A DNA stretch of 64,000 nt from Thermosipho sp. (in: thermotogales) (GTDB taxonomy: Bacteria; Thermotogota; Thermotogae; Thermotogales; Fervidobacteriaceae), in the NCBI GenBank assembly GCA_017656345.1, contig JACDNZ010000011.1, positions 1-64,000 on the forward strand, written 5' to 3'. The notes beneath the pieces were generated by a model, which saw nothing but the letters and a program-made list of their open reading frames with translations, made no database searches and had not been told where the DNA came from. Made by a program: the position numbers and the translations under genes. Positions 26,644 through 28,061 of this stretch are shown here, one piece after another (the first letter of the stretch is position 1; every line of letters begins with the position of its first letter).

Positions 26644-27003
26644 ATGATTAAAGTTAGAAAGTGGTATTTGATTTTAAATTACATACAACTTTTTATAGTT
26701 TTATCCATTGTTTTATATTTCCTGAAACTTCCCATTTCTATATATTTATTTTCTCTCCTGCTATTTTCCTCTCTTATTTCAATTAGCTTGTTTTTGGAAG
26801 CAATCTCATTTAAAATGTATGTTTTTGATGATAATTTAGTTTTTTCGTGTATTTTTTATGAGAAAGTTATTCATATATCTGAGATAGAGGATTTTAATAT
26901 AAACTTTTTACATGGTAAAATTAAACTTAAAGATAAAGTTATTGTTGTTCCACCAGTTAAGGGGGGAGATTTACGGAAAGTAGAAGAACTTTTGCAGAAA
27001 TAG
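26644..27003 (+). CDS. Small two-helix membrane protein, family unknown
   Basis: 119 residues. Two hydrophobic segments near residues 10-32 and 33-55 are followed by a soluble C-terminal domain of beta strands ending in VIVVPPVKGGDLRKVEELLQ, somewhat like bacterial PH-like (YdbS/PH) proteins, but the family is not certain. It starts only a few bases after the rpmB terminator's T-run and has no clear Shine-Dalgarno sequence. Its last 30 codons overlap the N-terminal coding of alanine racemase in the -1 frame, and it contains GGGGGGA exactly where that frame opens. Confidence 0.55.
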   Translation: MIKVRKWYLILNYIQLFIVLSIVLYFLKLPISIYLFSLLLFSSLISISLFLEAISFKMYVFDDNLVFSCIFYEKVIHISEIEDFNINFLHGKIKLKDKVIVVPPVKGGDLRKVEELLQK

Positions 27004-28061
27004 ATATCAGAAACTATCTTTCAAATCTAAGATATTTTCAAAAAAAATGTGCCCCTGCAAAGGTAATGCCAGTTGTAAAAGCAGATGCATATGGTCATGG
27101 AGCAATAATGCTCTCAAAAGCTGCAGAAAAAATGGGGATTGATTATCTTGCGGTTGCTTTTTTAGAGGAAGCGTTGGAACTTAGAAGAAATGGAATTAGA
27201 ACAAAAATTCTTGTTTTTAATTATGTAGAAAAAGATTATGTAAGACTTGCTGTTGATAACAAGATAACATTAACCATGTTATCTTGGGAGCAGCTTGAAG
27301 ATTATAAAGATTTAAATGAAAAACCTGTTGTTCATATAAATATTGATACCGGTATGAATAGAGTTGGTATTAAACCAGAATATGCAAAGAAATATTACGA
27401 AAAACTTTTGGAGTATGGATTCGAAGTTGAGGGGATTTACACTCATTTTGCTGTGGCTGATTCGTTAAGAAATGAGAATATTGAATTTACAAAAAAACAA
27501 TATCAACAATTTTCTTCAGTTGATATTGATGTTCCAATTAAACATGTGTGTAATAGTGGGGCTTCAATTTCAGGTGTTGTACCATATCATAACTATGTTA
27601 GGGTTGGAATTGCAAGTTATGGGCTTATGCCAAGTAATGAGGTTTATGATACAAATCTGAAACCTGTTCTTTCCTGGAAATCTGTTGTTTCACATGTAAA
27701 ATATATAGAAAAAGGTGAAAGTATAAGTTATGGTAGGACATTTATCGCAGATAAAAAGATAAAAGTTGCAACAATTCCAGTTGGCTATGCTGATGGATAC
27801 TGGAGACATCTTTCAAATATTGGGCAGGTATTAATTAATGGAAAAAGGCGAAAAATACTGGGAAGGGTGTGTATGGATCAATTTGTTGTGGAAGCTGATG
27901 AAAATGTAAAAATTGGGGATGAAGTAGTACTTATTGGAAAACAGGGGAATGAACATATAACCGCTGAAGAGATAGCTGATAAAGTTGGAACAATCAACTA
28001 TGAGGTTACCTGTAGGATTTCTAAAAGGGTGCCGAGAAAATATAAAGGGGTGGAACTTTGA
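26973..28061 (+). CDS. alr: Alanine racemase, start codon not canonical
   Basis: PLP-dependent enzyme making D-alanine for peptidoglycan. VVKADAYGHG carries the PLP lysine; YGRTF, VGYADGY and GRVCMDQF are further family motifs. The first ATG in frame is 27066, but that would put the lysine at residue 5. The same frame upstream codes for ESRRTFAEIDIRNYLSNLRY, the normal racemase N-terminus, and has no ATG, GTG or TTG before a TAA at 26958. An ACG at 26973, four bases after GGGGGGAG, would give the lysine position 36, as expected. A noncanonical start, a -1 shift on GGGGGGA from the upstream gene, or a sequence error could each explain this. Confidence 0.85.
   Translation, partial: TESRRTFAEIDIRNYLSNLRYFQKKCAPAKVMPVVKADAYGHGAIMLSKAAEKMGIDYLAVAFLEEALELRRNGIRTKILVFNYVEKDYVRLAVDNKITLTMLSWEQLEDYKDLNEKPVVHINIDTGMNRVGIKPEYAKKYYEKLLEYGFEVEGIYTHFAVADSLRNENIEFTKKQYQQFSSVDIDVPIKHVCNSGASISGVVPYHNYVRVGIASYGLMPSNEVYDTNLKPVLSWKSVVSHVKYIEKGESISYGRTFIADKKIKVATIPVGYADGYWRHLSNIGQVLINGKRRKILGRVCMDQFVVEADENVKIGDEVVLIGKQGNEHITAEEIADKVGTINYEVTCRISKRVPRKYKGVEL

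Follow-up and report, generated by a model that had tools for sequence, protein, structure and literature searches.

Where does translation of an alanine racemase gene begin when none of the usual start codons precedes the conserved N-terminus that it encodes? This question is raised by alr in the window, the whole 64,000-nt stretch of Thermosipho sp. DNA analyzed here, for which the initial annotation had reported no ATG, GTG or TTG between an upstream in-frame stop and an ATG at 27066, and had left a choice between initiation at an ACG codon, a -1 frameshift out of the upstream gene, and an error or natural indel in a run of six G residues.

The alr reading frame and its product

26973..28061, + strand: alr, alanine racemase; 362 aa if begun at the ACG at 26973, with the protein (M)ESRRTFAEID...
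27066..27068, + strand: Met32 of alr, the earliest canonical ATG in frame; invariant in nine species as an internal residue, and an unlikely start

The open frame 26961-28061 encodes a full alanine racemase, matching TIGR00492 with 352 bits (cut-off 168) over profile positions 1-367 of 369, with both Pfam domains, Ala_racemase_N and Ala_racemase_C (PF01168 and PF00842), present in the product. The TIGR00492 match opens at the RRTFAEI block of the Alr N-terminus. In sequence, domains and length the Thermosipho protein is like the ordinary bacterial alanine racemase of this family, from which it differs only in its start codon and in the overlap of its gene with the gene upstream. Besides alr, the genome contains two PF01168 matches, one Orr-like (ornithine racemase) and one a short protein that we read as YggS-like; because the only full-length paralogue is the Orr-like one, alr is the sole canonical alanine racemase gene of the genome, and it is presumably essential. 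Each of the 20 genomes of the family that we compared has an orthologue, at 62-85% identity.

Upstream, the alr frame is bounded by the stop TAA 26958-26960, after which it continues GGG GGG AGA TTT ACG GAA AGT AGA AGA ACT TTT GCA GAA ATA GAT. Reading onward from this stop confirmed that ATG, GTG and TTG are all missing from the frame before ATG 27066, and that a start there would, as initially stated, delete the conserved N-terminus, at a cost of 31 conserved residues.

A conserved ACG codon behind a strong Shine-Dalgarno sequence

26973..26975, + strand: predicted ACG start codon of alr; ACG in 9/9 species of genera g1, g4 and g5
26958..26966, + strand: putative Shine-Dalgarno sequence TAAGGGGGG, about 7 nt before the ACG; it includes TAA 26958-26960 and the run of six G

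To place the start codon in its evolutionary setting, we compared the 20 genomes of the family, which fall into genera g1 to g5, with g1, g4 and g5 making up a Thermosipho-like clade. The codon aligned with 26973 is ACG in all nine species of g1 (the genus of the window, four species), g5 (four) and g4 (one), whereas the sister genera g2 and g3 have a canonical start at this position in 11 of 11 species (ATG in seven, GTG in four). This comparison strongly supports initiation at ACG 26973, the first of the options put forward initially. No ATG, GTG or TTG lies at or upstream of the conserved N-terminus in the window, in its g1 relatives or in L011; an in-frame upstream ATG occurs in three g5 species and a TTG in L012, the single g4 species, both of them ill placed relative to the Shine-Dalgarno (SD) sequence. 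When Alr loci were collected from named records, all but one of 78 had a canonical start ahead of the conserved N-terminus; the exception is a Thermosipho MAG, itself one of the nine ACG species. The lack of a canonical start at alr in the window is thus more than a chance finding. One change is enough to account for the ACG rows in a tree of Alr built by maximum likelihood (support 72/41, with a long branch for the g4 row), and the ACG would most simply have arisen once, from an ATG or GTG start in a Thermosipho-like ancestor, and been kept thereafter.

Coding conservation sets in precisely at the ACG. The nine species agree in all 12 nucleotides of codons 1-4 of alr (ACG GAA AGT AGA), and the codons at -1 and -2 vary freely, including a TAA in L007. 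This invariance does not stem from a lack of divergence, since, of the 46 two-fold C/T sites that encode an invariant residue, not one is C throughout the nine species, four-fold sites are unchanged in only two of 69 cases, and ACG fills no invariant Thr column of Alr other than the start column; in G010, ACG accounts for 11% of Thr codons. Past the overlap with the upstream gene, codons 12-31 have 13 variable first positions, 4 variable second positions and 17 variable third positions, the pattern of protein-coding sequence, and many solved Alr chains align over their first ten residues with the N-terminal segment of the Thermosipho protein. On comparative grounds, the N-terminus ahead of Met32 thus belongs to the enzyme.

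The G-rich run that precedes the codon has a counterpart in every ACG species. TAAGGGGGG, a strong SD at normal spacing, matches TAAGGAGG in full once one G-U wobble against the anti-SD is accepted, and a G-rich SD stands at normal distance before the ACG in all nine species, with the variants GGGAGGGG in L006 and GGGGAGGGG in L007 and a perfect AGGAGG in L012. The initial annotation had described GGGGGGA as a slippery run, and G GGG GGA is indeed present in the upstream frame at 26961-26967, but we identify the G-run as the ribosome-binding site, not as a slip site.

Translation of alr very probably starts at ACG 26973-26975. By strong comparative evidence, which bears on its position, its conservation, its SD and the overlap with the upstream gene, the ACG appears to be a real conserved feature, and from this we infer that initiation itself takes place there. 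In the mechanism that we propose, the strong SD TAAGGGGGG, about 7 nt upstream of the ACG, would place the 30S subunit, the ordinary initiator tRNA (anticodon CAU) would pair with ACG despite the mismatch at the middle base, and the Alr protein would begin (f)Met-Glu-Ser-Arg-Arg. An initiator-like tRNA with anticodon CGU was considered and rejected, since the initiator seen in 1.6 Mb of G010 and 0.8 Mb of G006 is the ordinary one (CAU, with GGG/CCC in the anticodon stem), and the tRNA-Thr(CGT) there is ordinary too.

The overlapping upstream gene and competing readings of the locus

26644..27003, + strand: small membrane-protein ORF upstream of alr, 119 aa
26973..27003, + strand: dual-coding overlap; alr frame ACG GAA AGT AGA, upstream frame (TTA) CGG AAA GTA GAA GAA
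26617..26634, + strand: hairpin resembling a terminator, located after rpmB and just before the membrane-protein and alr genes; weak, with one found against 0.8 expected by chance

The upstream ORF, which matched no Pfam or NCBIfam profile, runs in another frame and overlaps the ACG-begun alr by 31 nt. Across the family, a homologue of this membrane-protein gene sits between rpmB and alr. Overlap with alr is present in all nine ACG species and in no others; in the eleven species with ATG or GTG, a gap of 21-121 nt separates the end of the homologue from alr. The upstream gene of L012 is in the +2 frame on entering alr and stops 11 nt past the alr start. The association between ACG and overlap counts as one evolutionary contrast. 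At the junction of the two genes, no RNA structure was found beyond chance, and a scan for promoters gave matches at chance level.

What the ACG might do for the cell is less firmly indicated than its use. It most likely would give low-level, IF3-sensitive translation of an essential enzyme, and this translation may be coupled to, or interfere with, that of the membrane-protein gene upstream, which crosses the alr start with its last codons. The low efficiency, the IF3 sensitivity and the coupling are properties that we infer, and we regard this regulatory part of the explanation as close to evenly balanced between true and false.

A variant of this explanation, compatible with initiation at ACG, holds that the codon is a genuine start without regulatory meaning, kept only through the overlapping upstream Arg codon CGG while the strong SD makes a poor codon good enough. 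We would give this variant somewhat less than an even chance. The genera with overlap are precisely those with ACG, the invariant first codons of alr fall in the dual-coding stretch, and a C-to-T change from ACG to ATG would turn the upstream Arg into Trp in g1 and g5, all of which speak for a constraint exerted by the upstream protein. In L012, however, the overlap is in another frame and the change to ATG would leave the upstream residue unaltered (TAC to TAT), yet ACG is kept all the same; moreover, the upstream Arg does not look ancestral, because the non-overlapping homologues of the upstream protein in g2 and g3 end differently. The single case of L012 favors selection on, or tolerance of, the ACG itself. 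The chance of a C being kept at such synonymous sites is about 0.3, and because retention by chance is this frequent (~30%), we put regulation forward as a hypothesis.

For part of g5, the start could instead be an in-frame ATG two codons before the ACG, which would there be merely a Thr codon. Three of the four g5 species (L008, L009 and L010) do read GGGGGG ATG GGT/TTT ACG, but their ATG abuts the G-run without spacing, while the ACG lies at normal distance; the fourth species, L011, has ATA in place of the ATG, and the ACG is invariant in g5 although Thr codons elsewhere vary. This reading is improbable, and ACG remains our preferred start in g5 as well.

Initiation at ATG 27066, yielding a shorter active Alr, has in its favor that this is the first canonical in-frame start and that the presumed PLP lysine would be retained. 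The 31 residues that would be lost evolve as protein-coding sequence, however, and include the first part of TIGR00492 and of most of the matched solved Alr chains, and Met32 is internal in the clade, with the sister genera starting upstream of it at ATG or GTG. We consider such a start highly improbable.

The second of the options raised initially, a -1 shift on G GGG GGA that would fuse the upstream membrane protein to Alr as a membrane-anchored product, is scarcely credible and was rejected. A check of orthologues for the G-run and the frame relation showed that the heptamer stands in the proper phase in the window, in L005 and in g5, where a -1 shift would enter alr, but is absent from L006 and L007. 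A slippery heptamer in the upstream frame is thus not conserved, nor is an unbroken frame relation, given that L007 has a TAA directly before the ACG and that the upstream frame of L012 is +2, from which a -1 shift cannot reach alr. Additionally, the sequence downstream shows no stable stimulatory structure (fold z-score -0.26), and the sister genera make plain Alr from ATG or GTG. The remaining option, a sequencing or assembly error or natural indel (an indel in the run of G, or a T of the start codon given as C), was likewise rejected as negligible, for although the draft assembly behind the window is in 88 contigs and errors are common in homopolymers, eight other species, in independent genomes that include two single-contig assemblies, share the ACG with differing upstream sequences.

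Near-cognate starts in the family and in known systems

Conserved non-canonical start codons of bacteria that have been well characterized are few (infC and sigR), and start switches to codons outside ATG, GTG and TTG are very rare, with two to CUG and one to AUU from 61,358 ancestral AUG starts (PMC5622118). By its comparative features, sigR of Streptomyces is the nearest documented case to alr. Its GTC start is conserved in 32 of 34 species behind the strong, likewise conserved SD AGGAGGTG (Feeney et al., 2017, PMC5472188); GTC is absent in sister genera, which have ATG there, the gene was misannotated, and repression by IF3 has been shown by experiment (PMC5472188). Like sigR, alr has a clade-conserved non-canonical start, a strong SD, sister genera with a canonical codon, and a start that would be missed by annotation restricted to ATG, GTG and TTG. 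In contrast to this sigma factor with its GTC start and its experimentally shown repression, alr encodes a biosynthetic enzyme, would start at ACG and overlaps an upstream gene.

The AUU or AUC start of infC, the gene for IF3, offers a second parallel, being near-cognate, long conserved and preceded by a strong SD, as proposed for alr. It differs in that infC is autoregulated by its own product and has a third-base mismatch, whereas the ACG of alr mismatches at the middle base; to our knowledge, Alr has no known link to initiation fidelity. The ACG starts of eukaryotes, viruses and chloroplasts use this codon as a weak initiator, as we propose for alr, but involve different initiation machinery or editing, and we know of no ACG-to-AUG editing of the chloroplast kind in bacteria. 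In chloroplasts, ACG is converted to AUG by C-to-U editing (PMC9845219). A search of the open-licence literature turned up no paper describing an ACG start, be it for alr or for any gene of Thermosipho. The alr start would therefore be of a known kind, a non-canonical start, with an unusual codon, gene and overlap arrangement.

To assess how widespread such starts are in the family, we surveyed about 690 filtered gene pairs between the 1.6 Mb of G010 and the 0.8 Mb of G006, together with 35 pairs between the window and G010. In this survey alr was the only gene for which homology and SD pointed to ACG, and ATT or ATA starts were indicated for a few genes, namely mnmL/ytqA, pth, psuG (in G010) and one further gene. 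As a positive control served infC, which in the ACG clade starts at ATT or ATC (L234-L242; for example, TGA ATT ATC GAT AAG in L239).

If true, the ACG start would offer an unusually clear natural example of initiation with a middle-base mismatch, kept by nine species from three genera on a sole and presumably essential enzyme, and standard annotation, which admits only ATG, GTG and TTG, would misplace or truncate Alr throughout the Thermosipho-like clade. Together with the ATT and ATA starts, the ACG of alr would make start-codon stringency in Thermotogota directly testable. A more far-reaching idea, which we hold to be doubtful, is that the ACG on the sole alanine racemase is a regulatory device, in which an inefficient, IF3-sensitive start inside a membrane-protein gene would set the D-alanine supply for the cell wall, and that alr would join mnmL/ytqA (ATT), pth (ATA/ATT) and infC (ATT/ATC) in an IF3-responsive set of genes missed by gene finders.

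The other candidates differ in their distribution. In mnmL/ytqA, encoding a tRNA-modification radical SAM protein (TIGR01212), ATT stands behind GGAGGT in all 16 genomes read, which cover every genus of the family (e.g., L215:15326 in G006; L253-L269), often directly after an in-frame stop, and this ATT is probably a near-cognate start conserved family-wide. The gene for peptidyl-tRNA hydrolase, pth, appears to start at ATA or ATT in the g1 and g5 species read and at TTG in g4 (L122:14422-14982 in G010; L273-L281), at the same codon in the three genera and behind AGGAGG or a variant of it. Further candidate ATT starts belong to a psuG-like gene and to the gene of a protein of about 520 aa (L176:11328-12224 and L129:16783-18351, respectively, in G010), the latter being a candidate in both G010 and G006, and to a site-2-protease-like gene of G006 (L229:10537-12036). 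Finally, at G010:C1 1356637-1358937 (L181), adjoining open frames match consecutive parts of single G006 genes and look like disrupted genes.
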